Shown in pieces: positions 5,487 through 20,770 of a stretch of 50,998 bases of DNA; positions within the stretch are counted from its first letter, which is position 1; the number at the start of each line of letters is the position of its first letter. Origin of the DNA: Elusimicrobiaceae bacterium (GTDB lineage Bacteria; Elusimicrobiota; Elusimicrobia; Elusimicrobiales; Elusimicrobiaceae); the NCBI GenBank assembly GCA_017525025.1, contig JAFXUJ010000013.1, positions 1 through 50,998 of the forward strand, written 5' to 3'. The notes under the pieces were generated by a model. It was not told where the DNA came from. It saw nothing but the letters and a program-made list of their open reading frames with translations, and did no database searches. The translations under genes were made by a program, and so were the position numbers.

Positions 5487-5495
5487 AATAAGCTC

Positions 5496-6647: not shown

Positions 6648-6680
6648 TTTAGCCTGTGCGGATGTATTTACATTTTTCTG

Positions 6681-6745
6681 CTGAGAGAAACTCTCAGTCG
6701 GCAGTATTTTTTTTGTTGTTGTTGATCATTCGGTACAATGGGCAT
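6681..6745 (-). other. Candidate programmed -1 frameshift signal and upstream short frame
   Basis: An ATG at 6745 with AGGAG upstream opens a frame beginning MPIVPNDQQQQKK that stops after 25 codons. At codons 11-13 the message reads CAA AAA AAA, containing the slippery heptamer A_AAA_AAA (6713-6707). Nine bases later there is a perfect hairpin, CTGAGAG-TTT-CTCTCAG (6697-6681). A -1 slip leads straight into the open frame of the 5496-6647 gene without a stop. A real indel or assembly error in the A8 run would look the same. Confidence 0.45.
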
Positions 6746-6753
6746 ATGAACTC

Positions 6754-7245
6754 CTAACGAGCGGAAAATAAATCCAACAGTGAAATTCCCAGTTTCCAAC
6801 CAAAATTACTTTTACCGGCGGAACGACGATACTGTTGAGCGGCTGTTTTTAACGTGCGAACTTGCTGCGCCGCGGATAAATTATTTTCATACACATCTGT
6901 TTGTAAATGCGCTTGAATCGCACTTTCATCCAACAAGGCTTGAAAACGATTATTTTTAAGCAAATGCTGGACCGTGTAAGAATCGCCGCGCAAGCCGGAT
7001 GCCGCCATAGCAGCTTGTTGTGAGGCAGCTTGTTGACGATATTTTTGATATACTTCATTTGCTTTTTCGTTAGCAGAACGCAGCAAATATTCATTTTGGT
7101 GCTGCGCCGATGAGGCCACGTAAGCCGCTTGCTGTTCTTTCTCGGCAGCCAAGCCCCGATAACGTATAGCGGCCGATTTTTCGGCTTCCAATTCCCGTAG
7201 CGAGGAAGCCATACCCCTTCCTAAAATTCCTACAACTCCTCCCAT
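6754..7245 (-). CDS. Internal virion protein, T7 gp14-like
   Basis: This 163-residue protein is dominated by long Ala/Gln-rich helices (residues 14-150), with the stretch MAASGLRGDSYTVQHLL in the middle. That is the pattern of gp14-like virion core proteins (internal virion protein B) of T7/BPP-1-type phages. These form part of the trans-envelope DNA ejection channel. A good TTAGGAGG site precedes the ATG, which lies inside the end of the upstream gp13-like gene (overlap 7230-7245). The family assignment is from recognition of the repeat-like AAQ pattern and synteny. Confidence 0.65.
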   Translation of the reverse strand: MGGVVGILGRGMASSLRELEAEKSAAIRYRGLAAEKEQQAAYVASSAQHQNEYLLRSANEKANEVYQKYRQQAASQQAAMAASGLRGDSYTVQHLLKNNRFQALLDESAIQAHLQTDVYENNLSAAQQVRTLKTAAQQYRRSAGKSNFGWKLGISLLDLFSAR

Positions 7246-7709
7246 ATATTCCTCCTAAATAAAAAATGTAAAAAATTAATTTGGCTATAAACGCTTACTT
7301 TTCCGTCAAAGCAAGCATTTAAATGCGTCAGTAAATGCAAAGCCGCCGGGTAGCGCACATCAACTTCGTTACTTAACACAGGATACCGAGCCAACCAACG
7401 GGCCAATTGTTGTTTGGCCAAACGGAAAAAAGAGAATTTGCTGAGTCCGATTTTTCTTCCGGTTAATAGCCAAACACGGGCTTGCAATCCCAATGCCACC
7501 GGGGCATAAATCCCGGCTAAGGCAACCACTTCTTTTCCCCGCAGCAAACAAACGCTTGATTGAGAATATGCAATAAATGCTTCTAATAATTGGGCTACAT
7601 GTTCCCGGGGATGGGACGCTAATAATTCTTGGCGATCTTCCGGACGTAATACCCGTGCCAAGGCGCATCCGTCCCCCGCGCGTGCGGCCCGAAGAATGGT
7701 CTCTTTCAT
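7230..7709 (-). CDS. Gp13-like phage protein (DUF2833 type)
   Basis: The protein has 159 residues from ATG 7709, ten bases after the stop of the nozzle gene. A longer frame starting at 7769 would overlap that gene by 50 bases and has no ribosome binding site. The pattern ILRAARAGDGCALARVLRPEDRQEL, followed by a GNAT-like fold with AGIY and RVWLLTG, matches the gp13/DUF2833 family of podoviruses. It is acetyltransferase-shaped but probably a virion assembly factor. It sits where gp13 is expected, before the gp14-like gene. Confidence 0.7.
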   Translation of the reverse strand: MKETILRAARAGDGCALARVLRPEDRQELLASHPREHVAQLLEAFIAYSQSSVCLLRGKEVVALAGIYAPVALGLQARVWLLTGRKIGLSKFSFFRLAKQQLARWLARYPVLSNEVDVRYPAALHLLTHLNACFDGKVSVYSQINFLHFLFRRNIWEEL

Positions 7710-7719
7710 ATCATCCGCT

Positions 7720-10329
7720 TTATACCACCCGACATAATACTGCAAGCAAGGTAAGAGGCCATGGCTCATTTTGTTCTAACAGGATAGAAGGAGCCAACTG
7801 ATGCGTTCCTGCCAACGGCAAAACACAACTTCGGGTTGTCAAGGCCGGCACTGCGGGATTTGTTTGTGAATCCGGCGGAGTAATTTTTTCCAACGGCTCG
7901 CCCTCCAACGCCACTTCCCCGCCATAACTGCTGGCTAATTGTAACGTTACCCCTACAATCCGTTTTTTTTGATCCACGTTAAGGCCGACGGGCAATTGCG
8001 ATACCGCCGGTAAAGTTTGCAGCTGCGCTTGATATAAAAGTCCTACATGCACGCATTTCATTGCCGTCGGAAGTGTAATTTTTCCGTTACTTACGCGCAT
8101 GCGTTCCAACGGTTTGCCGTCTGCCAATACGCCTACCCAGCATCCCTCCAAGTGGTCTAACCCACTCACTTCTTCAAACGCATCCGTTGATTTTTTAGAA
8201 ACGCTGGAATCCAAAAATATTTGTTCTTGGAGTTCCCGGCTGATTAAACGGGGCAACAATTTTTCAATCAAATATTTCCCGTTTCTCTCTACCGCAAACC
8301 AAATTTCGTCATATCCCCGGTTCGGAATTACACATACGCTGTGGAAATAGCCTTGTGTATCATGATGCGTCCAAGCACAAACATTTTGCTCGGGCACGTA
8401 CGTCAGGGCCGCCACGTGTCCGTTAGATAAAATGCACCATACCAAATTGTCCGGTTCTTGTTGGTAACATATTTCTCTAATTTCCTCGTTAGCAAATAAA
8501 TGCTTGGCACATAAAGTTAAATCTTCTCCCACGTAAGAAGCACTGTTATAATCGTAATGAAAATCCCGCAAAGCTCCCGCCCGGGCCTGCACATATAAGG
8601 TGCGATTTCCCACCAATACGGCCCCTACCCGGCTTGCCCCACGTTCCCCTTGTTGCTCTACTTGAATGTTATAAGGAGTGAGTGCCCCATTAGATGAAAT
8701 ACTCCACTCACTTCCGGCCGTAAATACCAGTAATTTCCCGGCCACAGACACCGTATGGATGGCATTTAACTTTTTACCGGACAAATTGATGCTGATAGCG
8801 TCCGAATCTTCCAAGACTGCCCGAGCATGGCCAAAATCATTATACGCCCCTATTTTAGAAAACCAAACGGCTTGCGGTTCGGCATAGGAACCGGCAAATC
8901 CCAAACGATCTTGATAAAAAAACACACAAGACGGATAGCCATTTTTTTCGCCAAAAGATCCTTCGGCCCAATCGGCTGTCCAGTCATCACTTCCGTAAGT
9001 ACGCTCTATTTCAATGCCGACCTGGCGCGCATTGAGAAAGCGGGAAACTACCGCTATTCCTTCCTGCATAAAACTAGCCGATGTTAATTCGTATCCGGCT
9101 TCCCCGGTAATTTGGCAACTGCGTAAACGTAGATAATAAATCCCCCCGGTATCTTCCAAATGCCCTATATCAGCTAAATTATCATCGTCCTCATCGCGGA
9201 CAAAATATTTGACGGCCTGCCACGAAGTGCCTAAATCTTCGGATTTTTCTAATACCAAGGTTCCCGTCCAGGTACCGCTGGTACGCAAACTCCAGTCCGA
9301 ACTTGATTTGATAACAGCCGAGGAGCTCTCATACCCCAAGGCCCCTTTTTGCCGTTGGCTGGGCACCGGGTGGCATACACTAAACCGCATGCCTACATGT
9401 TTAGGGGAGAATACATCAAAGTTACTCTCCAACGTATAAGTAATCTCCCCTTGCGCAATAGTTTCCCCTTCGTTTACCCCTCCGGATAGTTGCTGTTCTA
9501 TAATCAGACTGGGATCATGCACAAAACTATCACGGTAAACCAGCTGCAAGGTAGCTCCGTTCCAGTCTCCGCCGGTAGCTTGCGGAGAAGTTATTTTAAT
9601 CAGCCCTCCCAAATTAACCGCCTCCACGCCGGATGATCCATTTACTCGGTTAAATTCGGAAACAAGCAGCTCGGTATCCAAGCCGTATCCCCGGGCCGCA
9701 AAGAACAACTCTCCTTGAAAATACCCATATACAAAGTACCGATTGTCCACTATCGGCAAAAAAGTTAATTCAGCCGCTACTCCGGCCGTCTCCACGTCTT
9801 CCTGTAGCGAAGCAATCCTCATTTTTTTATCCGGTTCCGTATTGGATAACCGAAACGGTCCGTATTGAATGGGAAACACCTCTAAACGGAAATTTCCCTG
9901 TCCCAAATACACCAACCGCCGGGGAGGATATTGGGGGTGCGTTAAGAATAAAGTTTGGTCATATTGTGTATAACTGATAGACGATAAATCGGTTTCTTTA
10001 TAGGGGGTAGCCAGCTCAAACGGCTCATTAGTGGCCGTAAGCAATTGTCCGGCCGAAGTATACGCCCGCATATATTCATGCCCCAGTTCCAACACATAGG
10101 CTTCCTTATCACTTACGGCAAAGGGAATAAGCCGGCATGCCCGGCCGTTATATTTAGCCGTGCCCATATAAACCGTACCGGGGCGGTTAGAGGCCCCTCC
10201 TTGCGGATGTATGTAAAAGTTACGGGCCTTCTTCAGCCAAGACGAGTAAGCCGGGCTATCTACCCGGGTTTGCAAGGCCGGGCTTACTTCTCCCCCCGCA
10301 AAAGAGGGCTGTACATGATGTAAAAGCAT
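7720..10329 (-). CDS. Tail nozzle / tail tubular protein B-like
   Basis: This 869-residue protein begins with the characteristic FAGGEVSPALQTRVDSPAY and KARNFYIHPQGGASNRPGT motifs shared by nozzle proteins of short-tailed phages (T7 gp12 and P22 gp10-like families). These form the distal tail tube that opens for DNA ejection. The middle is beta-rich, with repeated W-rich strands and a beta-propeller-like composition. The start is fixed by TAAATG: its ATG abuts the stop of the adaptor gene, so the two are translationally coupled. The length is normal for the family. Confidence 0.85.
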   Translation of the reverse strand: MLLHHVQPSFAGGEVSPALQTRVDSPAYSSWLKKARNFYIHPQGGASNRPGTVYMGTAKYNGRACRLIPFAVSDKEAYVLELGHEYMRAYTSAGQLLTATNEPFELATPYKETDLSSISYTQYDQTLFLTHPQYPPRRLVYLGQGNFRLEVFPIQYGPFRLSNTEPDKKMRIASLQEDVETAGVAAELTFLPIVDNRYFVYGYFQGELFFAARGYGLDTELLVSEFNRVNGSSGVEAVNLGGLIKITSPQATGGDWNGATLQLVYRDSFVHDPSLIIEQQLSGGVNEGETIAQGEITYTLESNFDVFSPKHVGMRFSVCHPVPSQRQKGALGYESSSAVIKSSSDWSLRTSGTWTGTLVLEKSEDLGTSWQAVKYFVRDEDDDNLADIGHLEDTGGIYYLRLRSCQITGEAGYELTSASFMQEGIAVVSRFLNARQVGIEIERTYGSDDWTADWAEGSFGEKNGYPSCVFFYQDRLGFAGSYAEPQAVWFSKIGAYNDFGHARAVLEDSDAISINLSGKKLNAIHTVSVAGKLLVFTAGSEWSISSNGALTPYNIQVEQQGERGASRVGAVLVGNRTLYVQARAGALRDFHYDYNSASYVGEDLTLCAKHLFANEEIREICYQQEPDNLVWCILSNGHVAALTYVPEQNVCAWTHHDTQGYFHSVCVIPNRGYDEIWFAVERNGKYLIEKLLPRLISRELQEQIFLDSSVSKKSTDAFEEVSGLDHLEGCWVGVLADGKPLERMRVSNGKITLPTAMKCVHVGLLYQAQLQTLPAVSQLPVGLNVDQKKRIVGVTLQLASSYGGEVALEGEPLEKITPPDSQTNPAVPALTTRSCVLPLAGTHQLAPSILLEQNEPWPLTLLAVLCRVV

Positions 10330-10911
10330 TTAACGCACCTCCGTAAAAGCATCTTCAGTCGGCGTTTTTAAAAAACTCTCCGAAGCATTACTACGCCGCG
10401 CTTCTTCCAAACTGAGTGTATATTTTTGCAATAGTTGGGCTGCCAATTGTGTATCTGCCGTCAACGATACGGCCAAATCACACGCCAAAGCCAACGAAAA
10501 GCTTTTGATAAACGCGGGATCAAATAGATTTTCATCTGTAATGCGCCCCGTATATTCCACCCACCCGGGAGCTACCTGGACCAATAATACCCGGCTATGC
10601 AAATCGGGCCGGAAATTCTCTTGAAAGGCAATCCGGTGGTGGTTTTTATCAAATATGTTGCGGACAAATAGCGCATTTTCCGGATATTGGCATACAAAAT
10701 AGCCTTGTTCATCCGGCTCATTTTCCAGCCAAACCAGCGGCTCATGAACCCCGGCAAAAGCCCAATTATGTGTTCTTAAAACTTCATCCCGAACCGGAGC
10801 ATAAAATAATTTTAACCTTCTTGCTTTTTCGCTTTCTTGTTCCAAAGAAGAAATTGGAGACTGGCCCAATTGAGCTAACGCTAAGTTACAAATATTTATT
10901 TTTGTTATCAT
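10330..10911 (-). CDS. Head-tail adaptor / tail tubular protein A-like
   Basis: This 193-residue protein opens with INICNLALAQLGQSPISSLEQESEKARRL and continues with YAPVRDEVLRTHNWAFA, the signature of gp11-like tail tubular protein A/adaptor proteins of T7- and BPP-1-type phages. They sit as a ring between portal and nozzle. GGAG precedes the ATG. The gene is separated from the cement protein gene upstream by more than 500 bases of AT-rich DNA, unusual inside a late operon. It is directly followed by the nozzle gene. Confidence 0.85.
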   Translation of the reverse strand: MITKINICNLALAQLGQSPISSLEQESEKARRLKLFYAPVRDEVLRTHNWAFAGVHEPLVWLENEPDEQGYFVCQYPENALFVRNIFDKNHHRIAFQENFRPDLHSRVLLVQVAPGWVEYTGRITDENLFDPAFIKSFSLALACDLAVSLTADTQLAAQLLQKYTLSLEEARRSNASESFLKTPTEDAFTEVR

Positions 10912-11440
10912 TTTTTATACTCCATTTTAATTTATATTATTTTTTCATATATTTTTTATATATACAATTAAAATATTTTTAATATTAAATTTAATTTATA
11001 TTATTTTTTAAGTATTTTTATAAACATATTATATATTTGATTATATTTTTATATAAATTACAAAATTTAAAAAATATTTAAATTTTAAATATTTTTATTT
11101 TTTGATATAATTTTAAATAATAAAAATATTGGTTTAAATTTCAGGGAACATTAAGGAAATGAATGTTTTAAAAGGATGTATTTTATAATTATTTTTAATT
11201 ACTTTTATAATTTCCCCCTATTAAAACTTAATTAAAGAATTTTCTTGCCCTTTGGGCCCTTTGAACCGCTATTTTTACCTGTTTTTCCACCGATTTTGCG
11301 CAAAAAGGCCTCTAAATTAAGTTTTTACACCTTGTCATAGAGAGTTTTATTCCTATTCGCATTTTAAGCGGGCTGTTTTTATTATAAAGTGCTTAGTAGA
11401 GACCGGGCGGGGCTACGCCCGGTCTTTTTACGCATATGGA
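10912..11440. other. AT-rich non-coding island inside the late operon
   Basis: About 530 bases carry no credible gene. From 10912 to about 11240 the sequence is almost only A and T, far below the composition of its neighbours. From 11240 to 11400 it becomes more balanced. No RBS-led frame is seen. It could hold promoters for the tail genes, a bending or protein-binding region, or the scar of a lost gene. Confidence 0.6.
11400..11428 (+). terminator. Rightward-facing hairpin terminator
   Basis: GACCGGGCG/CGCCCGGTC is followed by TTTTT on the plus strand only. The late genes run leftward, so this would end a rightward transcript of the AT-rich island or block antisense reading into the cement gene. 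Confidence 0.65.
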
Positions 11441-11824
11441 TTAGTGCATGTCTAACCCATCAGTCAGGAAGCAGGAAACCTTTCCGGCCGTAGCCGTACC
11501 GGTTACGGTATATTTGACACGCAAATACCGTTTTACTCCGGCCGGCACCGCAACCGCCAAGATTTGTTTGCCGGCTGTTAAGTCAGCTGCCAAAAAAGAG
11601 GCCGAAGCTAACTCCGTAACCGTAGAAAAGTTAGAAGTATCCGACGTCTCAACCCCTACTTTCATGCCGGTAAGTCCGGCAAAGTTCACATCTACCCGAC
11701 ATACCGCGAACAAAGCCCCGGGTGCAAAATTCCCGGCGGCAGTTAAGTCCACGGTATTTGTGGACGCGGCCGTCGTAGTAACTGCTTGTTGTTCAGAAAA
11801 TACGCCATTTTGGTCCAATAACAT
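11441..11824 (-). CDS. Capsid cement/decoration protein, Bbp16-like
   Basis: This 127-residue beta-rich protein begins MLLDQNGVFSEQQAVTTTAAS followed by NTVDLTAAG. That opening is typical of the Bbp16 cement proteins that trimerise on the outside of BPP-1-type capsids. AGGAGG precedes the ATG. It follows the major capsid gene after nine bases, as in the reference gene order. Ala, Thr and Val dominate and no cysteine pair is conserved beyond two isolated Cys residues. Confidence 0.8.
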   Translation of the reverse strand: MLLDQNGVFSEQQAVTTTAASTNTVDLTAAGNFAPGALFAVCRVDVNFAGLTGMKVGVETSDTSNFSTVTELASASFLAADLTAGKQILAVAVPAGVKRYLRVKYTVTGTATAGKVSCFLTDGLDMH

Positions 11825-11833
11825 ATCTACCTC

Positions 11834-12811
11834 CTATGCCACAAGGGCTTCCGTATCGGTAATTGCATCGCAAATGTGTACCGGAATTTCGTTAAACGTC
11901 ATGAGCGGACGAGCCGTCAGTTGATCCGGTGTATATTGGACGTTACTGCGGCTGCTGGCCAATTTACGCAAAGCTGCCTTGACGGTACGGTTCATATACC
12001 ACACGGGTTTGCCCATAGACAAACTTTGGATACGTTCTTCCAAATCACACATTTTGTCAATCAAATTAGAAGGTACGTTGGTGGTATCAATGTTGCAGAT
12101 ACGTCCGGCAAAGCGCCAATCTTGTACGGCTAATCCTAATTTCCACTCAAAATATTCTTTATAAGCAGGATATTCGTTGCCACTGGCATCCACGTGATTT
12201 ACCAACCCATGGTCCACCCGTTGGATCCCGGCTTTGGACCCTTTGGGGAAGAAGGTAAATACTTTATCCGTATCCCATACCACTAAGTAGATGGATGAGT
12301 TTTTATTAGCAGTGCTACTGCCGCCGTCAATGACGTTGCGAGAGCTTTCCGCACCGGAAAGTTCGCAGTAACGAGCCGCCAAACCGGTAAAACGTTCCGG
12401 ATTGATTCCAACGTTTCCGTAGATCAAATTAGAAGCCATGGTATTGGACATACCGGCGATAATCGCGCGAGATTGTCCGGTACGTACAGCGTCTACGTGT
12501 CCGCCCTTTTCGGCGACTAATTTATCTACCACAGAATAAGCCGAGAGCGTCCCATAGGATTCTACCACTACTTTGGTAGTTGCTTTGGCCGGCTCAATGC
12601 CTTGGTAAGCACGGCGCCAGGTTCCTTCCGGGATTCCGGTACGTACGGCATATTCGTGGCCGCTATCCAAAGAGCTTTCGCATACCAAGGCGTCGCCAAT
12701 AATATCGTTAGATTGGCTGAGCACTTCGGCAATAGCCAGTTCTTGGCCTGACGGATCAAATTGTTTGGCATAATCCACCAAACTATATTGTTTATCAGCA
12801 ATAATTGCCAT
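11834..12811 (-). CDS. Major capsid protein
   Basis: This 325-residue protein is of the BPP-1 (Bbp17)-type HK97-fold capsid family. The N-terminus (YSLVDYAKQFDPSGQELAIAEVLSQSNDII), the TGIPEGTWRRAYQGI and the AIIAGMSNTMASNLIYGN stretches are recognisable. The C-terminal part GLAVQDWRFAGRICNIDTT is also typical. AAGGAG precedes the ATG. It lies between scaffold and cement genes. No delta-domain protease is fused to it. Confidence 0.88.
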   Translation of the reverse strand: MAIIADKQYSLVDYAKQFDPSGQELAIAEVLSQSNDIIGDALVCESSLDSGHEYAVRTGIPEGTWRRAYQGIEPAKATTKVVVESYGTLSAYSVVDKLVAEKGGHVDAVRTGQSRAIIAGMSNTMASNLIYGNVGINPERFTGLAARYCELSGAESSRNVIDGGSSTANKNSSIYLVVWDTDKVFTFFPKGSKAGIQRVDHGLVNHVDASGNEYPAYKEYFEWKLGLAVQDWRFAGRICNIDTTNVPSNLIDKMCDLEERIQSLSMGKPVWYMNRTVKAALRKLASSRSNVQYTPDQLTARPLMTFNEIPVHICDAITDTEALVA

Positions 12812-12823
12812 AGATTTTTCTCC

Positions 12824-13429
12824 TTAATTTCGTTTTCCGTACAAAGCTTCGGCAAAGGTTTTATCTTGCGGGGCGGAGGGAGTTCCGCCGGGGCAGATAT
12901 CTTCGCTGATGGTTCGACCGATTCCGCTAAGAGTACGTATCATAACGGGATGGTTTCCAAGCCCCGTTTCTTCCAACAAAGCGCGTAATTCCGGCCCGCC
13001 AAACGTGTTAGCGGCGCGTAGGGCGTACGTAATTTCTTGTTCCAGCCCCGCACCGTATAAAGCTTTCGTTTCGTTCGCCCAAGCAATAGACTGCCGATGT
13101 TTTTGGGCAGCTGCTTCCTCGGCTTTTCGTTTGGCACAGGCAGATTCAAAATCCACCAGTTTTTGTGCTTGCTGCTCCGATAATTTCAATTCTGCGGCTA
13201 AAGTTTTAAAATTATCCAAATCTTCAGACGCAAACGATACATCCGGCGCAAGTTGAATGTTGGAAAAGGACAACGAGTCCTGTTCTTCACCAGGCTGTTG
13301 GGCGGACAAATTCGCCGGGGAATTTTCTTCCTCTGCGTTTTGTGCTACGGTTTCTTCCGCCGCCCCAGCCGAAGCGGTTATGGTATCTTGTTTAGCTAAA
13401 TCGGTGGTTGTATTGGAAAGTTCAGACAT
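12824..13429 (-). CDS. Capsid scaffolding protein
   Basis: This 201-residue acidic protein has a disordered, Thr/Ala/Glu-rich N-terminal part and a helical middle (residues 75-125, LAAELKLSEQQAQKLVDFESACAKRKAEEA) likely to form a coiled coil. The C-terminus is basic (EALYGKRN), as expected for a scaffold tail that contacts the inner capsid surface. AGGAG precedes the ATG, and the start overlaps the stop of the Bbp19-like gene by eight bases. Position immediately before the capsid gene supports the role. Confidence 0.75.
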   Translation of the reverse strand: MSELSNTTTDLAKQDTITASAGAAEETVAQNAEEENSPANLSAQQPGEEQDSLSFSNIQLAPDVSFASEDLDNFKTLAAELKLSEQQAQKLVDFESACAKRKAEEAAAQKHRQSIAWANETKALYGAGLEQEITYALRAANTFGGPELRALLEETGLGNHPVMIRTLSGIGRTISEDICPGGTPSAPQDKTFAEALYGKRN

Positions 13430-13730
13430 GTGTCATCTCCTGAGTTAAACGGTCAATTTCTTTTTGTTCCGAACTAACTTCGGACAAATATTCCCCCCGC
13501 ATTTGTGCGTACATAGTGGGAGAAGCCTCTTCTATTTCGGCTAGCAAAAAAAGCCCGATGCTTTGCTGGCCGCAATGAAAGGCCGTAGCCGCGCTATCTC
13601 CGGGCACAAAAGAGTGCTGACGTACGCGGGTGGCTTGTAACAACCGCCACAACAAGCGGCGGCCGGAAGCCGTTTTCAATACAGCTAATAAATCACTGGT
13701 ATTACGTTTTTTTAATTGTTTTTCATTCAT
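13422..13730 (-). CDS. Bbp19-like phage protein
   Basis: This 102-residue protein contains TASGRRLLWRLLQATRV and AATAFHCGQQSIGLFLLAEIEEASPTMY, the pattern of the Bbp19 family found between portal and scaffold in BPP-1-type phages. Its function is unknown; virion incorporation is possible. The ATG lacks a clear ribosome binding site, but it overlaps the end of the small upstream frame by eight bases, so translation may be coupled. Confidence 0.75.
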   Translation of the reverse strand: MNEKQLKKRNTSDLLAVLKTASGRRLLWRLLQATRVRQHSFVPGDSAATAFHCGQQSIGLFLLAEIEEASPTMYAQMRGEYLSEVSSEQKEIDRLTQEMTHV

Positions 13731-13914
13731 AAAAGTAGGAAAGCCCGCCCGGACGGGCTTTGTAGTGCAGTATAGCAGCGTTCCCTAATTTTAGACGCCT
13801 GCTCATGCCCGCTTTTTCACTTCTTACTCCATTAGACATCCGCCGTTTTTCTACCGGGGAAAACGCCCGGATGTCCCGCGCCGAACCGCCCCGCTTATGT
13901 AGACGCGTTCGCAC
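13723..13914 (-). CDS. Small basic protein between portal and Bbp19-like gene (tentative)
   Basis: This frame of 63 residues, starting with GTG at 13914, has AAAGGGA nine bases upstream, just past the portal stop, and ends overlapping the next gene. It fills an otherwise empty 200-base gap in a tightly packed operon. The product is rich in Arg and Lys and ends ILHYKARPGGLSYFYE. The DNA also holds a strong hairpin (GACATCCG/CGGATGTC, 13833-13873) and one at 13740-13760 (AAGCCCG/CGGGCTT). I recognise no family. It may instead be a structured spacer. Confidence 0.45.
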   Translation of the reverse strand: MRTRLHKRGGSARDIRAFSPVEKRRMSNGVRSEKAGMSRRLKLGNAAILHYKARPGGLSYFYE

Positions 13915-13928
13915 GCGGATTTTTCCCT

Positions 13929-15527
13929 TTACTTTTCCGAAGTTCCGGGGGACTTGTCCGCCGCGAGGGAAGCGGCTTCTTGCACCTGCTGCGGGGAAGC
14001 CGGTTGAGGGCTCCGGCTTCCCATGGGGGCATTTGTTTCTTCTTCGCTTTTTAGCAAGGCGGGGGCTACCCCTAACGCTTTGAGCCCTTCTTCCAAAGCG
14101 CAGTCATAATCTACGCGGTTTAACAGTTCCGGACGAACCGTCGCCAACGAAGCCGCATAGTTGAGCCCTTGCATCAGCGAGGAAAGCCCCGCCGCCTTTT
14201 GCGCTTGTGCAATCATAGATACATACTCCACTTTCATGGGTAAGCCTTGAATGCTGGGCGGCGCGGGCGGAAGTAGCCCTTGACGTGCCAACAAATTAAA
14301 TGCGCGGTCAATTAACGGATCCAACAATTCATTTTTGAGACGTTCCAACACAGGCCCCAATACCAACATTTTTTCTTGGTGCCGTTCCGCCACTTCGGTA
14401 GCGGTCATCCCGGCATAACTTTGGGCTGTCAACGAAAGGAAAATATCGGCAAAGAATTGAGAACGAATGGTGCTGCGGACGGATTGGATAGAAGCTTCCA
14501 ACGATTGCAAATCCGGTTGGACTTGGTAAGCCGGCTTCACGGAGCCGTCCGACGTACCGTTGTAACGGGTAATGCCACCGGGGAGTAAATTAACTTCCCC
14601 CTGCACATTAGCGGAAACCATAACCGGAGGGTTGGTGCTTTTGTCCAAGGCTACAAGTTTTGTTTTTTGCATTTTCTGCAACATTTTCACGTCTCCCAGG
14701 CATTTCCAACCGGGGCCTTTACCGTAGACATCCGACGTGTTTTTTACTTCCCACCGGGCCGCTATTACCGGGAATTCCTGGTAACCGCTTTGGCGCAGCA
14801 CATGGCCCGATTCCAAAAAATACACACTGGCAAAAGGCATATGATGATTATCCTGCCAAAAAGAAAGGTACTGCTCGTTAGGAATAATCAAATGAAAAAC
14901 TTTATGCCATTGACGAGCCTGTTCTTCCGTCGGGCGGGAAGCAATCTGCGGAGGAAGGTGTTCTTTACCAAATGTTTCAACCAGTTGCTCTCCCGTCATA
15001 AAAAATTCCCGGCCGAAACGATTTATTCGCCCTTGAGCGTTACAGCCCAAGCAATATTCCCCTATGGTAAAAGGGCGGCAATAAATTCCTTTTTCGCGGT
15101 CTTCTTCCAGTAAAAACGCCGCGGTACCAAATACGGCAATTTCTTCATAAAAACCGTGTAACACACCGTACACATTGCTTTTAGCAAAAACCTCCTCCAA
15201 GCGTTTTTTAACGTCAAACACCCATTCTCGTGCGCCGGGCAATTCCATCAATTCTTCGGGAGCGAGAGACAAATCAAACCAACTTCGCGCCGGACTTGTT
15301 AGCCCCGACATCATCCCGGCGCAAAGCACTTCTACTGCCAGGCACGGGTCGGAATCCAGCAAGGTTTTATGGTCAATGCGGCGGCCTTGGTTAGGCGTTT
15401 GCCCGTCAAAGAAACCGCGGGTAGGGGCCAAATAAGCTCCCAATTCTTTCCAAACAGGCATCCAAGAAGCCCGTTCGTTTTTTAATGCATCATAAAGACG
15501 CATATAATCGTTTTTTATCTGTTTCAT
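13929..15527 (-). CDS. Portal (head-tail connector) protein
   Basis: This protein of 532 residues from ATG 15527 (MKQIKNDYMRLYDALKNERASW) belongs to the T7/BPP-1-type head-tail connector family. Supporting segments are ELGAYLAPTRGFF, GMMSGLTSPARSWFDL, YEEIAVFGTAAFLLEED, the central YGKGPGWKCLGDVKMLQKMQK and the C-terminal QSYAGMTATEVAERHQEKM. It forms the dodecameric ring through which DNA is packaged and leaves. The Shine-Dalgarno sequence is weak. A strong minus-strand promoter at 15913-15942 lies upstream across the small plus-strand gene. Confidence 0.9.
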   Translation of the reverse strand: MKQIKNDYMRLYDALKNERASWMPVWKELGAYLAPTRGFFDGQTPNQGRRIDHKTLLDSDPCLAVEVLCAGMMSGLTSPARSWFDLSLAPEELMELPGAREWVFDVKKRLEEVFAKSNVYGVLHGFYEEIAVFGTAAFLLEEDREKGIYCRPFTIGEYCLGCNAQGRINRFGREFFMTGEQLVETFGKEHLPPQIASRPTEEQARQWHKVFHLIIPNEQYLSFWQDNHHMPFASVYFLESGHVLRQSGYQEFPVIAARWEVKNTSDVYGKGPGWKCLGDVKMLQKMQKTKLVALDKSTNPPVMVSANVQGEVNLLPGGITRYNGTSDGSVKPAYQVQPDLQSLEASIQSVRSTIRSQFFADIFLSLTAQSYAGMTATEVAERHQEKMLVLGPVLERLKNELLDPLIDRAFNLLARQGLLPPAPPSIQGLPMKVEYVSMIAQAQKAAGLSSLMQGLNYAASLATVRPELLNRVDYDCALEEGLKALGVAPALLKSEEETNAPMGSRSPQPASPQQVQEAASLAADKSPGTSEK

Positions 15528-15595
15528 AAGGTATAAAAAGAAGCACAACGAAGCAAAATTTACTACTATGTAGAAAAGAAAGGAGGAACAAAACT

Positions 15596-15778
15596 ATGGC
15601 GGGACTAATACTGATCTTTATTTTTGTAATCTTGATGGCAATACCGGGGTTTTACATTATTACGCGCAAGCTGTTTCCTAAAAACAGTAAGCGTTCGGCC
15701 GTGTGGATATCTATTGTATTAACAGCCATTTTGGTAGCGCTCCTGGCATTAGGAACCTTGGGGAATCTGCCTGCATAA
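15596..15778 (+). CDS. Small two-helix membrane protein, oriented against the phage genes
   Basis: This 60-residue protein has two transmembrane segments (about residues 3-21 and 35-55) joined by a basic loop KLFPKNSKRSAVW. GGAGG precedes the ATG, and a hairpin terminator follows at 15811. It is thus a self-contained rightward unit inserted between the portal and the ChaN-like gene. This is the usual look of a phage moron expressed in the lysogen, for example an exclusion or membrane-stress protein. A holin is another option. The family is not recognised. Confidence 0.6.
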   Translation: MAGLILIFIFVILMAIPGFYIITRKLFPKNSKRSAVWISIVLTAILVALLALGTLGNLPA

Positions 15779-15810
15779 TTCCAATAATAAGAAAAGCGAT
15801 TTTACTAAAA

Positions 15811-15834
15811 AGCCGCCTGAAAGGGCGGTTTTTT
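15811..15834 (+). terminator. Terminator of the small membrane protein gene
   Basis: The stem CCGCC/GGCGG with a short loop is followed by TTTTTT, 33 bases after the stop at 15778. Confidence 0.8.
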
Positions 15835-15912
15835 GGGCGCAAAAAACCCGCTACTTAAAAAACAAACAACAAATTGTAGGAAAATAAAGGAAAGATTTAC
15901 TTCTATTTTTTA

Positions 15913-15942
15913 ATTATAGCATAAATAATGCTACTTTGTCAA
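15913..15942 (-). promoter_or_regulatory. Strong leftward sigma70-type promoter with internal palindrome
   Basis: On the minus strand TTGACA (15942-15937) and TATAAT (15918-15913) are 18 bases apart. The palindrome TAGCAT-N5-ATGCTA (15917-15933) fills the spacer and touches the -10. The 12-base core is shared with the promoter at 19038-19066. It would drive portal and downstream genes across the opposing small gene. Confidence 0.75.
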
Positions 15943-15986
15943 GTTCTTTACAACAAAATACACGTGCTTGATCAACAAAAACTATT

Positions 15987-17108
15987 TTATTCTTCGTGGA
16001 CAATAACGGTTAAATCATTGCCCAGGAGTTTATTATAGGAGCCGGGATCCTTCCAGGATTCCACCAGTTTAGCACTCGGAGAAGCATTAAATTGTTGGCG
16101 TGTGGCTTCATCAACGAGCATATTTGAAAACAATGGATTAGCAGCCGGCAAGGCATGGGGAATCGTCACTTGCACCACAAAGCTTTTTCCTTTAAGGAGG
16201 GATGGTAAAGAGGACTGATTATGATAGGCCATGTGAAACATGCCGCCATACACCACGATGAGGGCACCCGGATCATAAATTTGTAATGCCCGAATTTTGC
16301 GAGCAAACAAGCGGTTACGAAGAGCTATTCCTTCCCATGAAACGGCAAAATCACCTAACTGTTTCATCGTGGGAAGCTTTTGTTTCCGGGGGGTGCTAGC
16401 TAGAATAAGCGCAACATCATCTTCCAACCCGTACAACGGAATTTGTGCGTTCAAGGCGGCCTTTAGCACTTGAATAGTTTTGACAGGGGCAGTAACGTCG
16501 AGTCTATCGGCCAGTTCGTCTAACGTCAAAATTATATTTTCTTCCGCTGTCCATTCCTCTAACGTAGGAATTATTTCCGCCGCCAGATAAATGGTACGTC
16601 CCGGATAAATGGACGGCAGTTGACTCACCAGAGAAACAATCTCTTTTTGCACCCGCATTTCTTCGTGTGTTTCACCGATATAAAGAACATCTATATCTTG
16701 CGGCAAAAAATTAGCATACGGTACTTTTTTTGTAAAAACATGATTTTGTATTCGTGTAGAGATGTGTGAAAGATTCGTTTCAAAACGAACCGCATGTTTT
16801 GCAAAATCTTGTAAAGCCTGCAAGGCCCGGGCATCGTTCCGTTGAGCTAAGCGCGGATAAGCCGAATAATCTAAGGAGCTTCCCAAAAAACATTCCGGCA
16901 GGTAAGAAGCATAATGTTTAGGTTGCGGAGAAAGAAAACCGACTTTATAATTACCCAACGCGAGGGGCGTCTTTCGGTTTAAGGCTTGCACAAAGGGCCG
17001 ACTACGATATAGCGCTTCTGCCCCTTTATGAGAAAGCGGAATGATTTGCGCACAAACGCTACCCTCTACAAAAATCATGCTAAACAAAACAAAAAATATT
17101 TTCCGCAT
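15987..17108 (-). CDS. Secreted ChaN/EreA-like (Tiki superfamily) cargo protein
   Basis: This 373-residue protein has a signal peptide (MRKIFFVLFSMIFVEGSVCA, cut near residue 20). Residues 141-148 read VLYIGETH and residues 286-296 VYGGMFHMAYH. These are the paired GExH and G-x-x-H motifs of the ChaN/EreA/TraB fold, whose members bind haem or metal, hydrolyse esters or cleave peptides. AEII (177-180) and RNRLFARKI (264-272) fit the same fold. It lies between terminase and portal but plays no evident part in virion assembly, so it is probably a cargo (moron) gene acting in the periplasm or outside. A TTGCGT/TAATAT pair just upstream could be its own promoter. Substrate unknown. Confidence 0.6.
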   Translation of the reverse strand: MRKIFFVLFSMIFVEGSVCAQIIPLSHKGAEALYRSRPFVQALNRKTPLALGNYKVGFLSPQPKHYASYLPECFLGSSLDYSAYPRLAQRNDARALQALQDFAKHAVRFETNLSHISTRIQNHVFTKKVPYANFLPQDIDVLYIGETHEEMRVQKEIVSLVSQLPSIYPGRTIYLAAEIIPTLEEWTAEENIILTLDELADRLDVTAPVKTIQVLKAALNAQIPLYGLEDDVALILASTPRKQKLPTMKQLGDFAVSWEGIALRNRLFARKIRALQIYDPGALIVVYGGMFHMAYHNQSSLPSLLKGKSFVVQVTIPHALPAANPLFSNMLVDEATRQQFNASPSAKLVESWKDPGSYNKLLGNDLTVIVHEE

Positions 17109-17186
17109 ATATTAACTGTACTTCTTTTGACGCAAGCCCGCGAGGGCCTTTGGACCTATTTTTTGATAAAAAAAGGACCTAGCTGT

Positions 17187-18497
17187 TTATATCACTTCGT
17201 ACTCACTTTGAGCAAACTCGCTCATCTGTCCGGCACGCCGGACACGCACCGGTGCGGCAAACGTGAGGGCAAGCGCATCCGCCAAATCGGGGCTCTTACC
17301 GCTACGCGCCTTGAGTTTTTCCTTAGCTTCTAAACGCAAACGCCCGGAAGCATCATAATCGTACGTAGTTTGGCATAAATCCGCTTTCAACTCCGCTGAA
17401 GATGGCAGAGCTCCGCCTTCTTTAATCCAGGCCGCCATTTCCCCCCACATTTCAGCCCGTTTATTCACGTATTGTCCCGCGCGCAAGGGAGTCCCGCCAA
17501 ACGGCACTTCGGTTACACCAAAACCCAATTGACGCAAACGGTCTATAACCCCCGCCCCACAGCCGGCATCAATAAATACACCGTCAGGGTGGAAAACTTC
17601 TATTTGGTGAGCTACCTGTGCCGCCAGCGCCATGCTATCTATCCGCTGAAAAACCAACGGATTGAATGCCTGTTTGCCTTGACGGGGAAAAATCACACTT
17701 CGATCATCCCCGAAACGAGCCGGATCCACTCCTAAAATTTTAGGGGCGAACCTGATTTCCGTACTGGCATACCGGCGGCTTGCCGCGGCTAACACCTCAT
17801 CTATCGGTATCAAAATATTTTCGGCACTGGCGGTAAAATCACATAAATATTCTTGGCGAAAAATATTATCCGGGGTTTCGCGACGGATTTCTTCTAATTC
17901 TTCCGCAGAGATCACCCCGGATTCATCGGCCCGAAATAGGCCCGCCCACCACAGGTGAGGATCGGCTTGCGCCGCCCTTTGAGCGTGGTTAAATAATTCA
18001 TAAAAAGCGTTTTGTCCTTTAGGTGTCCCTATAAAGACCACCCACCCCTCGCGCGAGAGAAGCATTGGGCGGATAATTTCCGAAAATACGTCAGGTTTAA
18101 TTTGAGCATATTCATCCAGTACCACTCCGTCGGCGTAGGTTCCTCTCAACGCATCCGGGTTATCCGCACCGCTTACCCATACACGCGCTCCGCCGGGCAA
18201 TTTGATACACAATTCGGTTTCATTAATCACTATCCCCGGGATAGGTGCGGCATACCGTTTAAGATAATCCCATGCGATCCTTTTGGCTTGGTTTAAAAAA
18301 GGCGCGATATAAAAATACCGGGCATGTGCGCGCGTATTTTGAAGTGCTTTTTTAAGCAAGTGATTAACGGCACAAACCGTCTTGCCCAATTGCCGGTGCG
18401 TAACCAACACACAGAAACGATGTGTTTCCAACGCACGGTGAATTTGCACCTGGACGGGCCGCGGACGATAAGGAATAACTACCGAAACAGATTTCAC
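17187..18497 (-). CDS. Terminase large subunit
   Basis: This protein has 436 residues from the GTG at 18497, which has GGGAGG upstream and overlaps the small-subunit stop (TAGTG). The longer frame from 18518 adds seven residues with no ribosome binding site. The ATPase part has a Walker A-like THRQLGKT (about residues 28-35), a Walker B VVLDE with following YAQI, and a coupling motif FIGTPKGQNAFYELF. The nuclease part has GVDPARFGDDRSV, FIDAGCGAG and a late PDLADALALTF, giving the acidic metal-binding residues of the RNase H fold. It cuts concatemeric DNA and pumps it through the portal. Confidence 0.92.
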   Translation of the reverse strand: MKSVSVVIPYRPRPVQVQIHRALETHRFCVLVTHRQLGKTVCAVNHLLKKALQNTRAHARYFYIAPFLNQAKRIAWDYLKRYAAPIPGIVINETELCIKLPGGARVWVSGADNPDALRGTYADGVVLDEYAQIKPDVFSEIIRPMLLSREGWVVFIGTPKGQNAFYELFNHAQRAAQADPHLWWAGLFRADESGVISAEELEEIRRETPDNIFRQEYLCDFTASAENILIPIDEVLAAASRRYASTEIRFAPKILGVDPARFGDDRSVIFPRQGKQAFNPLVFQRIDSMALAAQVAHQIEVFHPDGVFIDAGCGAGVIDRLRQLGFGVTEVPFGGTPLRAGQYVNKRAEMWGEMAAWIKEGGALPSSAELKADLCQTTYDYDASGRLRLEAKEKLKARSGKSPDLADALALTFAAPVRVRRAGQMSEFAQSEYEVI

Positions 18498-18937
18498 TAT
18501 TCCTCCCAACGCACACAAATAGGCGGAGAAACGGCCAGATCTTCTTTACCGTCTTTCCAACCCAACAGATTTTTAGCCGTAAATACCGCAAATGAGGCAG
18601 AATAATTCCCGCGCAAACTGTTTTGAATCAAAATATTACTTTGCAAATCACGCGCTTTTTGAGCCGCCTCACGGAATGCGGCATGTTTGTTTTCCCACAT
18701 TTTGAGCACTTCGCAAGTAGTACCTATTTGTTTAGCAAATGCGGCAAACGTCGGCAGTTCAGCAGCGGTTTCCACCATGCTCACCGAGCCATCCCGTTTA
18801 GTCACTTCTGTAATATGGAAGGGCGGCACGTCAAAAAATGCCAACAACTTATCACAAAATTCCGGTTGGTAACGCAACGTTACCGCTTTAGAAGATTTAA
18901 TACAAGACAAGGAAGAATTTGTTTTTTTGCAAGGCAT
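18497..18937 (-). CDS. Terminase small subunit
   Basis: This protein has 146 residues from ATG 18937, which has GGAGAG upstream. An upstream extension to 19069 would add a hydrophobic, atypical N-terminus and cross the promoter. Residues 45-95 (LPTFAAFAKQIGTTCEVLKMWENKHAAFREAAQKARDLQ) form the helix-turn-helix that binds the packaging site. SILIQNSLRGNYSASFAVFTAKNLLGWKD is the conserved oligomerisation part of this terminase family. It is the first gene of the leftward late operon. Confidence 0.85.
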   Translation of the reverse strand: MPCKKTNSSLSCIKSSKAVTLRYQPEFCDKLLAFFDVPPFHITEVTKRDGSVSMVETAAELPTFAAFAKQIGTTCEVLKMWENKHAAFREAAQKARDLQSNILIQNSLRGNYSASFAVFTAKNLLGWKDGKEDLAVSPPICVRWEE

Positions 18938-19037
18938 AATCTCTCCAAAAGGCACCCTGGAAAAGTAGTTTTTCGGAAAGAAAAGGAAAAAGGAGATAAA
19001 AAAATACAAACCGCCTCTTTGCGCTTTGTATAAGTAT

Positions 19038-19066
19038 ATTTTAGCATAAATAAATATTTTTGTCAA
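19038..19066 (-). promoter_or_regulatory. Leftward promoter of the late operon
   Basis: On the minus strand TTGACA (19066-19061) and TAAAAT (19043-19038) are 17 bases apart. The -10 side shares TAGCATAAATAA (plus-strand reading) with the promoter at 15913-15942. It lies about 100 bases before the small terminase start. Confidence 0.75.
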
Positions 19067-19174
19067 CAAAATATGATTTATCTATCGATAAAGGAGGCAA
19101 TATCCAGCCATTTTTGATTCCTCCCCAGACTTGGTACGGACACAAAGGTTCTGCACCGGATTTTGGAGGCGCAA

Positions 19175-19267
19175 ATGAGCAGTTGTACAGGTAAATGGTT
19201 ATTTGCAAATACGGATCCAAACTATGACTATAAAGACGACCTTTCCACCCATAAACGCAAACGTTAA
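19175..19267 (+). CDS. Possible 30-residue protein (tentative)
   Basis: An ATG at 19175 is preceded by GGAGG at an ideal five-base distance. It opens a 30-codon frame beginning MSSCTGKWLFANTDPNYDY and ending in a basic THKRKR tail. No promoter is obvious and the family is unknown. Its location in the otherwise empty stretch between the late promoter and the regulator suggests a small early phage protein, but chance is not excluded. Confidence 0.3.
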   Translation: MSSCTGKWLFANTDPNYDYKDDLSTHKRKR

Positions 19268-19359
19268 GATAATCCGCACGATAAAAAATAAAATTTTCCA
19301 GTTTTAACCGCAAAAACATAGTACATTTTTTTACTTCTTACATTGCTTACTAAAATATA

Positions 19360-19640
19360 AAATAATTGGGAGCAAAGTTAACCCAAGCTCCAAAAGCCAT
19401 TTATAAATTAGGCCGGTCTGCCCGGCATATTAACTTTGCTAACCCAATTGACTTTTTATTTGCTACAATACAACTACATAGTTCCTGGCAGAATTATGAA
19501 GTTACGCATAACGGGGCACGCCCGCCGCGGGAGCGGCGGTAGTCATTCGGTTATGACTTCCTCCGTTTGAGATGTCCTGCTTGAGTAGGATATTTCAACT
19601 GCGTTGGTAAGATGAAAAACAGAAAGCCAACTGCTTTTCA
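19360..19640. other. Structured non-coding control region beside the phage regulator
   Basis: A long imperfect inverted repeat (19364-19381 with 19430-19449; core GCAAAGTTAA/TTAACTTTGC) encloses a GCCGG/CCGGC hairpin. Next come a rod-like hairpin at 19496-19560 (GAAGT/ACTTC, CATAAC/GTTATG, CCGCCGC/GCGGCGG) and a 10-pair hairpin at 19569-19596 with two G-U pairs if read on the plus strand. GCGTTGG/CCAACTGC pairs around 19601-19634. A minus-strand promoter at 19648-19677 would transcribe the region leftward. Candidate small RNA or operator complex; no protein-coding frame longer than 15 codons with a good start was found in it. Confidence 0.45.
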
Positions 19641-19677
19641 TATTGTTAGTATAGTAAGTATTGTTAGCGTTTGTCAA
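19641..19677 (-). promoter_or_regulatory. Divergent phage promoter with repeated operator-like sequence
   Basis: On the minus strand TTGACA (19677-19672) and TATACT (19653-19648) are 18 bases apart. On the plus strand TATTGTTAG occurs at 19641-19649 and 19659-19667, overlapping the promoter. The spacing of 18 suggests paired binding sites for the regulator encoded just to the right. Confidence 0.55.
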
Positions 19678-19717: not shown

Positions 19718-20347
19718 ATGAATAAATTTGAAAAACAGTTAGAAAAATGGAATAACGGCATTTTGCGTGGCGCGCAATCAAAGTTAGCAAAAAGGTTGCA
19801 CGTATCCACCGCCACCGTAGCATTGTGGGCTACGGGTCAACGTCATCCCTCCAAAGGATATGTGTCTAAAATGGCCCAGCTTTTCAAACTGGATGTGTAT
19901 GAAGTAACCCGTTTATTTGACCCACAAATTTCTTATCCAACCACTTCCGGAACTTCCCATCCGATAGAACTACATGATGCAAAAGGAGTTGAGAATCCCT
20001 ATTTCCCCTCTACTTGGCACTCGCACACTAACACCGTATCTTTACCGGTATTTACTCAGGTTCCGCCCTCTTTCCCTTATTACGCGACCACGGACGCCTT
20101 AGAATACTGGGTATTGCCGACCTCCGCTACGCAAGGCGCCCAATATTTATTTTTACTTCCGACGAAAGATGACCCGATCCAACTTCTCTTTATTAAACCC
20201 AGTAAAGCGTGGGTAAAAGGTCGGCCGATGCTTGCACGCAAAAAAAACACCTATCAACTCATTTCTGCTAAATGCACCAAACAAACATTCGCTGCGGATT
20301 TAGAACCGGTAGGTGTCATTGTCCGGCAGTTAATTAGGCCCCGTTAA
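19718..20347 (+). CDS. Phage CI-like transcriptional regulator with degenerate S24-like C-terminus
   Basis: This protein has 209 residues from ATG 19718 (MNKFEKQLEKW); the longer frame from 19661 runs through the control region. Residues 15-60 hold a helix-turn-helix (AQSKLAKRLHVSTATVALWATGQRHPSKGYVSKMAQLF). The C-terminal half starts VSLPVFTQVPPSFPYYATTDALEYWVLP, which resembles the start of LexA/CI S24 peptidase domains. The expected G-D-S-M catalytic serine stretch is absent. It faces away from the late operon with operator-like repeats between them, as a lysogeny repressor would. RecA-triggered self-cleavage looks unlikely. Confidence 0.65.
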   Translation: MNKFEKQLEKWNNGILRGAQSKLAKRLHVSTATVALWATGQRHPSKGYVSKMAQLFKLDVYEVTRLFDPQISYPTTSGTSHPIELHDAKGVENPYFPSTWHSHTNTVSLPVFTQVPPSFPYYATTDALEYWVLPTSATQGAQYLFLLPTKDDPIQLLFIKPSKAWVKGRPMLARKKNTYQLISAKCTKQTFAADLEPVGVIVRQLIRPR

Positions 20348-20353
20348 CCCCCC

Positions 20354-20381
20354 TTGATTTTAACGGTAAAAGCGCTATACT
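20354..20381 (+). promoter_or_regulatory. Sigma70-type promoter of the 20.4-20.8 kb RNA
   Basis: TTGATT (20354-20359) and TATACT (20376-20381) are spaced by 16 bases, six bases after the regulator stop. Transcription would start near 20388. Confidence 0.7.
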
Positions 20382-20387
20382 ATTAGT

Positions 20388-20770
20388 ATCCGGTTCGTTC
20401 AGAAAAGCCCCTTTTACTTGCGGGTGTGTTGTTTTGCAACATGTTTTCAGGAAAAAGGGAACTGTTTTGAAGGGAGAGAGAGCAGGCGCGAAGAGCGTAG
20501 TTCCGTCTCTGGCGAAACAGAAAATAAGAGTTCTTTGTGTTTCGTGCAATACAACAGGACGACGCGGATGCGAAGTCTTGTTCACGAGCCCTAAGCCTTT
20601 ATCTGAGGATAAAGGATTCCCTTAGGGATATGGGCAGGAGCAACACGTTTCAGGTTGTATGTGGCATAGCAAAGTTCTTAACTGAATGACAAACGGATAA
20701 GAAGAGAGTAAACATGAATCAGTTGACTCAATGAGTCCTCCGTGTGGGTAACGCGGAGGGCTCCTTTTTG
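20388..20770 (+). ncRNA. Unassigned structured RNA of about 380 nt
   Basis: The segment lies between a clear promoter and a clear terminator and shows many helices. They are CCCTTTT/AAAAGGG around 20409-20458, enclosing TGTTG/CAACA; CTGTTTTG/CGAAACAG (20462-20520); AACAGGAC/GTCTTGTT (20553-20582); and CCCTAAG/CTTAGGG with CCTTTATC/GATAAAGG (20589-20626). TTCTTA/TAAGAA (20676-20703) and GACTC/GAGTC near the end follow. The only notable frame (20434-20625) has no proper start context. I looked for tmRNA, RNase P, SRP and 6S signatures and found none that fit. It is host or phage derived; unknown. Confidence 0.6.
20734..20769 (+). terminator. Terminator of the structured RNA
   Basis: AGTCCTCCG pairs with CGGAGGGCT (one G-U pair) and is followed by CCTTTTT. 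Confidence 0.9.

Follow-up and report, generated by a model that had tools for sequence, protein, structure and literature searches.

A genus-wide structured RNA gene with a terminal mini-ORF beside a CI/LexA-like repressor gene in Elusimicrobiaceae

The window (the whole stretch of DNA analysed, 50,998 nt from an Elusimicrobiaceae bacterium) contains a discrete RNA gene of about 382 nt (20388..20769, + strand), made up of a promoter, a folded RNA of about 330 nt and a terminator, and present as one copy per genome across the genus. It lies directly downstream of an HTH repressor gene (19718..20347, + strand), and a podovirus-type structural cluster (4071..19319, - strand) runs divergently from that gene. 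The RNA promoter (20354..20389, + strand) is of the sigma-70 type: TTGATT, starting at 20354, is separated by 16 nt from TATACT, which ends at 20381, and the element runs into the palindrome ATACTATTAGTAT (20377-20389). TTGA-N17-TATACT was found again in nearly all relatives' RNA promoters; TATACT is followed by NNNNNTA in 56-57 of 59 of them, and they extend as TATACTnnnnnTA, often in the palindromic form ATACTnnnAGTAT. At the 3' end, an intrinsic terminator (20733..20769, + strand) consists of a 13-bp stem (20733-20763) with a loop of 5, followed by CTTTTT, and is kept in all clades. The promoter, strong terminator and transcript of about 380 nt that the original prediction had read from this sequence alone were all recovered by the promoter, fold and terminator evidence, with the qualification that the limits of the RNA are inferred: its 5' end was deduced from the -10 box and is unmapped.

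The original prediction left the RNA unassigned, suggested that it is neither tmRNA nor RNase P RNA, and named a search with covariance models as a check. In that search, Rfam 15 models gave only chance-level scores at the locus (best ≤19 bits), and the only Rfam matches in the window were two tRNAs. No match at the locus was obtained for tmRNA (RF00023; tRNA-like acceptor domain, tag ORF without its own AUG) or for RNase P RNA (RF00010, conserved core), and both genes are sited elsewhere in the genome, at C2:29952 (tmRNA, 129.5 bits) and C2:143169 (RNase P RNA, 206 bits). Nor did 6S, SRP, GOLLD, ROOL, OLE, pRNA or any other Rfam 15 family exceed its gathering threshold there.

The predicted fold has an energy of -146.1 kcal/mol (z = -6.9; 0 of 100 shuffles equally stable), and z ranged from -2.9 to -8.7 in twelve relatives spanning all clades. 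The fold and per-clade covariation define a closed domain (20389..20698, + strand), held by an outer helix in which the 5' end of the RNA (20389-20395) pairs with 20692-20698, and about 30 nt of open RNA lie between this domain and the terminator. The outer helix encloses a junction that contains two CAGAAAA strands (20400-20406 and 20518-20524, + strand). Clades A and B share a plan consisting of the outer helix, helices branching from the CAGAAAA junction, a pentaloop hairpin, a boxA-like element and a long arm. The pairs of the consensus fold covary beyond shuffles (0/500) in each of clades A, B, C, F and G. A covariance model, R1, was built from the best conserved domain (20518..20684, + strand) and scores 161.8 bits at the window locus; 25 of its 37 pairs show compensatory changes on both sides, and standard pairs fill 93.7% of cells, compared with 80.4% after shuffling and 41-46% with slid partners. 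The shuffle control ignores kinship, whereas the slid-partner control corrects for relatedness. Primary sequence changes fast while the fold is retained.

The stability of the fold and the covariation in all five clades bear out the prediction of a structured RNA, and the conservation and covarying pairs by which it was to be judged were both found in related genomes. Its further statement, that there is no convincing protein frame, holds for long frames, none of which persists, but not for a short conserved frame at the terminator (20714-20734). A protein-coding gene was rejected: among the seven closest homologs, 40 of the 53 gaps in the alignment have lengths not divisible by 3, which breaks the frame, and no long frame is kept. 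With no Rfam match and with conservation and covariation found, the proposal of a large structured RNA of no assigned class, encoded by phage or host, is supported. Overlooked in it were, most strikingly, the terminal mini-ORF, and also the GNRNA and boxA-like motifs, the pairing with the repressor gene across the genus and the vertical descent of a genus-wide phage block. The locus belongs to a family of free-standing structured RNA genes found across the genus, each with its own promoter and terminator and situated just 3' of a CI/LexA-like repressor gene that is part of a vertically inherited module of phage origin, and the family is almost certainly previously undescribed.

A DNA search of 101 relatives returned homologs from this genus, and every one of the stronger matches lay directly 3' of one HTH gene. 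Same-genus records are mostly of rumen and gut origin. The repressor gene is present in 62-63 of the roughly 65 genomes sampled from the genus and the RNA in almost all repressor loci retrieved, so that the phage regulator first noticed beside the RNA proves to be its 5' neighbour in nearly all of the ~65 species. R1 matches 53 of 66 genus genomes and links divergent clades at the expected position; clade F members that it did not detect were located by position. R1 had no match in ~275 genomes sampled from the rest of the phylum, and blastn against phages disclosed no viral carrier of the RNA. An IMG/VR pattern match (L171) was discarded as a chance match inside a coding gene, and matches in other phyla (Tenacibaculum, Pedobacter and others) were taken as chance 20-mer matches; of a few that were checked, none was linked to the phage proteins. 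Repressor paralogs (L116-L135) have no downstream RNA bearing the motifs, and related prophages with a repressor paralog (L129/L184) have no RNA of this family.

Just 3' of the outer helix lies the mini-ORF ATGAATCAGTTGACTCAATGA (MNQLTQ; 20714..20734, + strand), whose stop overlaps the base of the terminator. In 57 of the 58 RNA copies of the repressor-linked set, an ATG is followed by 4-5 codons and then by a stop placed at the foot of the terminator stem, as counted by a search demanding both start and stop, with exceptions inspected by hand: all 56 trimmed homologs have the frame, a 57th (L107) was recognised by eye, and the sole exception (L071, genome G030) has lost its 3' end and belongs to a genome without a terminase match. 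Among the 56 homologs the frame has 5 codons in 26 and 6 codons in 30, and it stops with TGA in 23, TAG in 23 and TAA in 10. TGG never occupies the stop position (0/56), although about 9.4 cases would be expected were the last two bases independent. The homologs encode 35 different peptides with no common residue after Met. Shine-Dalgarno-like stretches are clear in clade F (GGGGAAGGAA) and weaker in clades A-E (AAGAGAG).

From these comparisons of sequence we infer that frame length and stop position are under selection and that the peptide sequence largely is not. Because there are many peptides, two lengths and all three stops, ribosome occupancy, and not the peptide, is inferred to be what is selected. 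Frames of 2-8 codons allow repeated translation without ribosome dissociation; on the mccA frame, a bound ribosome is reported to bring about termination and to leave the message ribosome-bound (PMC6495379). We think it probable that the mini-ORF is translated or ribosome-occupied, with no expression or translation data as yet. A formyl-peptide of 5-6 residues could instead be the product, acting as a ligand (of the neighbouring repressor, for instance) or as a signal, with the RNA serving as its structured mRNA. The frame is nearly always retained, it adjoins a regulator, and in one clade a number of the codon changes leave the residue unaltered or replace it conservatively. Nevertheless, so varied a set of peptides, sharing nothing past Met, is poorly suited to a product, coding a peptide needs no 330-nt covarying domain, and the repressor model is like LexA/CI and not like a peptide-binding TPR fold; we regard this reading as improbable. 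A microcin C-type precursor (seven codons ending in Asn, with MccB downstream) was rejected separately: the frames have 5-6 codons and a varied last residue, and no MccB was noted among the flanking ORFs.

A short ORF beside a terminator also recalls leader-peptide attenuators, which would make the RNA a cis-acting leader of a downstream gene. We reject this disfavoured and scarcely credible reading because there is no fixed downstream gene: an ABC transporter gene on the opposite strand follows in the window, and elsewhere DksA or YggS, each with its own promoter.

Within the closed domain, a hairpin with a GAAGA (GNRNA) pentaloop (20485..20500, loop 20490-20494, + strand) has a stem that covaries between species, and GAAGA or a single-base variant (GGAGA, GCAGA, GAAGC) occurs in nearly all homologs outside clade G. 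Located 3' of this hairpin, again outside clade G, is a boxA-like GYUCYUUG (GUUCUUUG in the window, 20530..20537, + strand; UGCUCUUUGA, UGUUCUUUGA and UGUUCCUUGA in relatives), part of which is paired in the predicted fold. Clade G (~9 species) keeps the mini-ORF without an evident Shine-Dalgarno stretch, GAAGA loop or boxA-like motif. The clade F motifs resemble the rRNA boxA of Bacillus. GYUCYUUG(A) differs at one base from the boxA consensus of gammaproteobacteria, GYTCTTTAANA (PMC5725501), and clade F UGCUCUUUGA and UGUUCUUUGA are one base from it over the first eight positions; the organism's own rRNA leader is unavailable, the 16S gene being missing from the assembly. In rrn leaders boxB precedes boxA (PMC10250234), and the hairpin-then-boxA order seen here is theirs and not that of lambda nut. 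A lambdoid nut site, which needs boxA upstream of boxB and a cognate N protein, was rejected on this reversed order, with no N-like protein noted among the genes. Whether the boxA-like element is functional remains doubtful: it is a resemblance only, from which NusB-S10 binding and Rho resistance might tentatively be inferred.

The repressor combines an N-terminal HTH domain (PF01381) with a C-terminal LexA/CI-like domain, for which the AlphaFold model shows similarity to LexA and lambda CI. Divergent from it is the phage-operon promoter, TTGACA-N18-TATACT (19640..19677, - strand), where the 9-mers CTAACAATA-CTTACTATA-CTAACAATA cover the spacer and -10 box and are nearly invariant in seven species. 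These repeats are likely to be the repressor's operators. They include TATACTAACAATAT, which resembles the palindrome of the RNA promoter, and joint control of the RNA and the phage operon by the repressor is plausible but unproven. The operon has a long leader (19319-19640, - strand) that may encode a 14-codon leader peptide (MTTAAPAAGVPRYA), preceded by a strong Shine-Dalgarno sequence and overlapping a GC-rich hairpin.

The adjacent CI-like repressor and the similar promoter elements would also suit an antisense or base-pairing sRNA acting on the phage operon or on the repressor, as other phage immunity RNAs do. Across seven species, though, we found no consistent complementarity to the phage-operon leader; the best pairings are GC-rich, differ between species and are near shuffled levels in most. 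The sequence, moreover, drifts quickly under a constant fold, and the RNA persists in a genome without phage genes (G060). Such a role therefore seems unlikely to us.

The structural cluster encodes small and large terminase, portal, major capsid GP7, tail tube, nozzle and internal virion proteins, and is related to Bordetella BPP-1-type modules. Its capsid gene is found in 62 of 66 genus genomes (related loci L040-L053 and L174-L183), nearly always as one main copy with 83-98% identity, and the capsid protein was absent from 83 other genomes of the order. Capsid identity follows host-gene identity (Spearman 0.66, n = 53), and protein distances correlate with those of neighbouring host genes (Mantel r 0.74 for capsid against DksA). 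The presence of the capsid gene in 62 of 66 species and its tracking of host relatedness argue for a gene transfer agent (GTA)-like element and not an ordinary prophage; the membership criterion of a capsid cluster inherited vertically across a clade is met in the genus. The cluster is thus probably a domesticated, GTA-like podovirus module, with particle function and DNA packaging or transfer being inferences. A literature search found no GTA described in Elusimicrobiota, and nothing comparable to this RNA is known to us from GTAs described so far.

Several further features of this module were observed. Second, diverged phage clusters with capsids 64-72% identical occur at L184 (G049:C2) and L185 (G007:C9); the former has a repressor paralog close by and no RNA of this family. 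Within the window's cluster lies a weakly ChaN-like gene (15987-17108, - strand; PF04187, below cut-off), an unexplained cargo present in two or three copies in some relatives. On the opposite strand inside the cluster, a conserved 60-aa membrane-like ORF (15596-15778, + strand) is found in nearly all relatives, including G060, which has no cluster.

The RNA's coupling to the phage module is strong but not absolute, as exceptions show. G060 has an intact clade G RNA and no repressor, capsid or terminase match; G040 has repressor, capsid and terminase and lacks the RNA beside the repressor; the RNA is also kept in G055, which has no capsid gene, and in G012, where there is no capsid match and the terminase is split. 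The G060 copy (L172, 3855-4005, - strand) carries an intact mini-ORF, MEKAIS, and a similar promoter despite the absence of a detected repressor. Two readings turn on these cases. A role in the particle, either in packaging or as a structural component, drawn by analogy with phi29 pRNA, would account for the RNA's association across the genus with a cluster that encodes portal and terminase, but the RNA is retained where capsid or terminase is lost or broken (G055, G012, G060), RNA and terminase are often unlinked, and the Rfam pRNA family is not matched, which leaves it very improbable. The RNA might alternatively be a host noncoding RNA unrelated to phage, the module having arrived next to an older repressor-RNA pair. 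The cluster adjoins the repressor and RNA in many species and lies elsewhere in others, where the unmoved pair keeps the same host neighbours, and G060 has the RNA alone, as G055 has it without a capsid gene. Against this, RNA, repressor and capsid cluster are all confined to the genus, and the repressor paralog near the second phage cluster (L184) suggests that the repressor is phage-derived; we see a pure host origin as rather unlikely.

We propose, tentatively and with some reserve in the absence of expression or translation data, an explanation that joins a ribosome slot, Nus loading, repressor co-control and a trans-acting RNA; support for the first three inferred steps falls in that order. 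The 30-odd nt from the outer helix to the terminator, containing a start site and a frame of 5-6 codons, would form a slot for one ribosome, which would translate the mini-ORF over and over without leaving, shield the 3' end of the RNA and help termination, as for the seven-codon mccA message. The GNRNA hairpin and boxA-like element would recruit NusB-S10 and the Nus factors associated with it to the RNA during its synthesis, guarding this long untranslated RNA from Rho and assisting its folding, as in pre-rRNA. Since the two promoters have similar sequences, the repressor would govern the RNA as well as the phage operon, the RNA being produced once the repressor lets go. The ribosome-bound RNA might then work in trans during the switch to particle production, its likeliest target being translation or Nus/rRNA-transcription capacity, a specific role that we consider speculative and for which the case is weak. 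Speculative, too, is a class of stand-alone RNA resembling a miniature pre-rRNA, in which boxA-captured Nus factors and one ribosome parked on a dedicated slot of 5-6 codons would redirect transcription and translation to the domesticated phage (GTA).

Large structured RNAs are rare in bacteria, and most new finds among them lead to unexpected biology. Here the comparative support is unusually strong and the 3' architecture of fold, mini-ORF and terminator precise, and the RNA's genomic linkage to a repressor and a capsid module is fixed, these being maintained across a whole genus. If real, the ribosome slot would be a general way to build a stable, ribosome-carrying noncoding RNA. The locus also directs notice to what is probably a gene transfer agent of podovirus-like type in Elusimicrobiota.

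Parallels with known systems are partial. GOLLD, ROOL and OLE are likewise large structured bacterial RNAs, and GOLLD and ROOL are often phage-linked (PMC12286853), whereas the present RNA is smaller, is limited to a single genus, has a terminal mini-ORF and matches no Rfam family. The microcin C mccA mRNA (7 codons) likewise has a tiny ORF immediately 5' of an intrinsic terminator; its ORF, however, encodes a fixed heptapeptide that MccB modifies, and the message continues into an operon, whereas the variable peptide here follows a 330-nt structured domain and no operon comes after it. The lambdoid nut site shares a GAAGA pentaloop hairpin near a boxA-like motif and an adjacent CI-like repressor, but here the hairpin comes before boxA, the stem is different and no antiterminated genes lie downstream. 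With the boxB-boxA-boxC leader of rRNA the present RNA shares a hairpin followed by a boxA-like motif (here GYUCYUUG) in a long untranslated RNA with paired ends (PMC10250234, PMC5725501); in our case no rRNA follows, the RNA stops about 200 nt later and there are no Nus-binding data. Lastly, as with RcGTA and the podovirus-like FpGTA of Faecalibacterium (PMC12946183), the capsid module that accompanies this RNA is genus-wide and vertically inherited.
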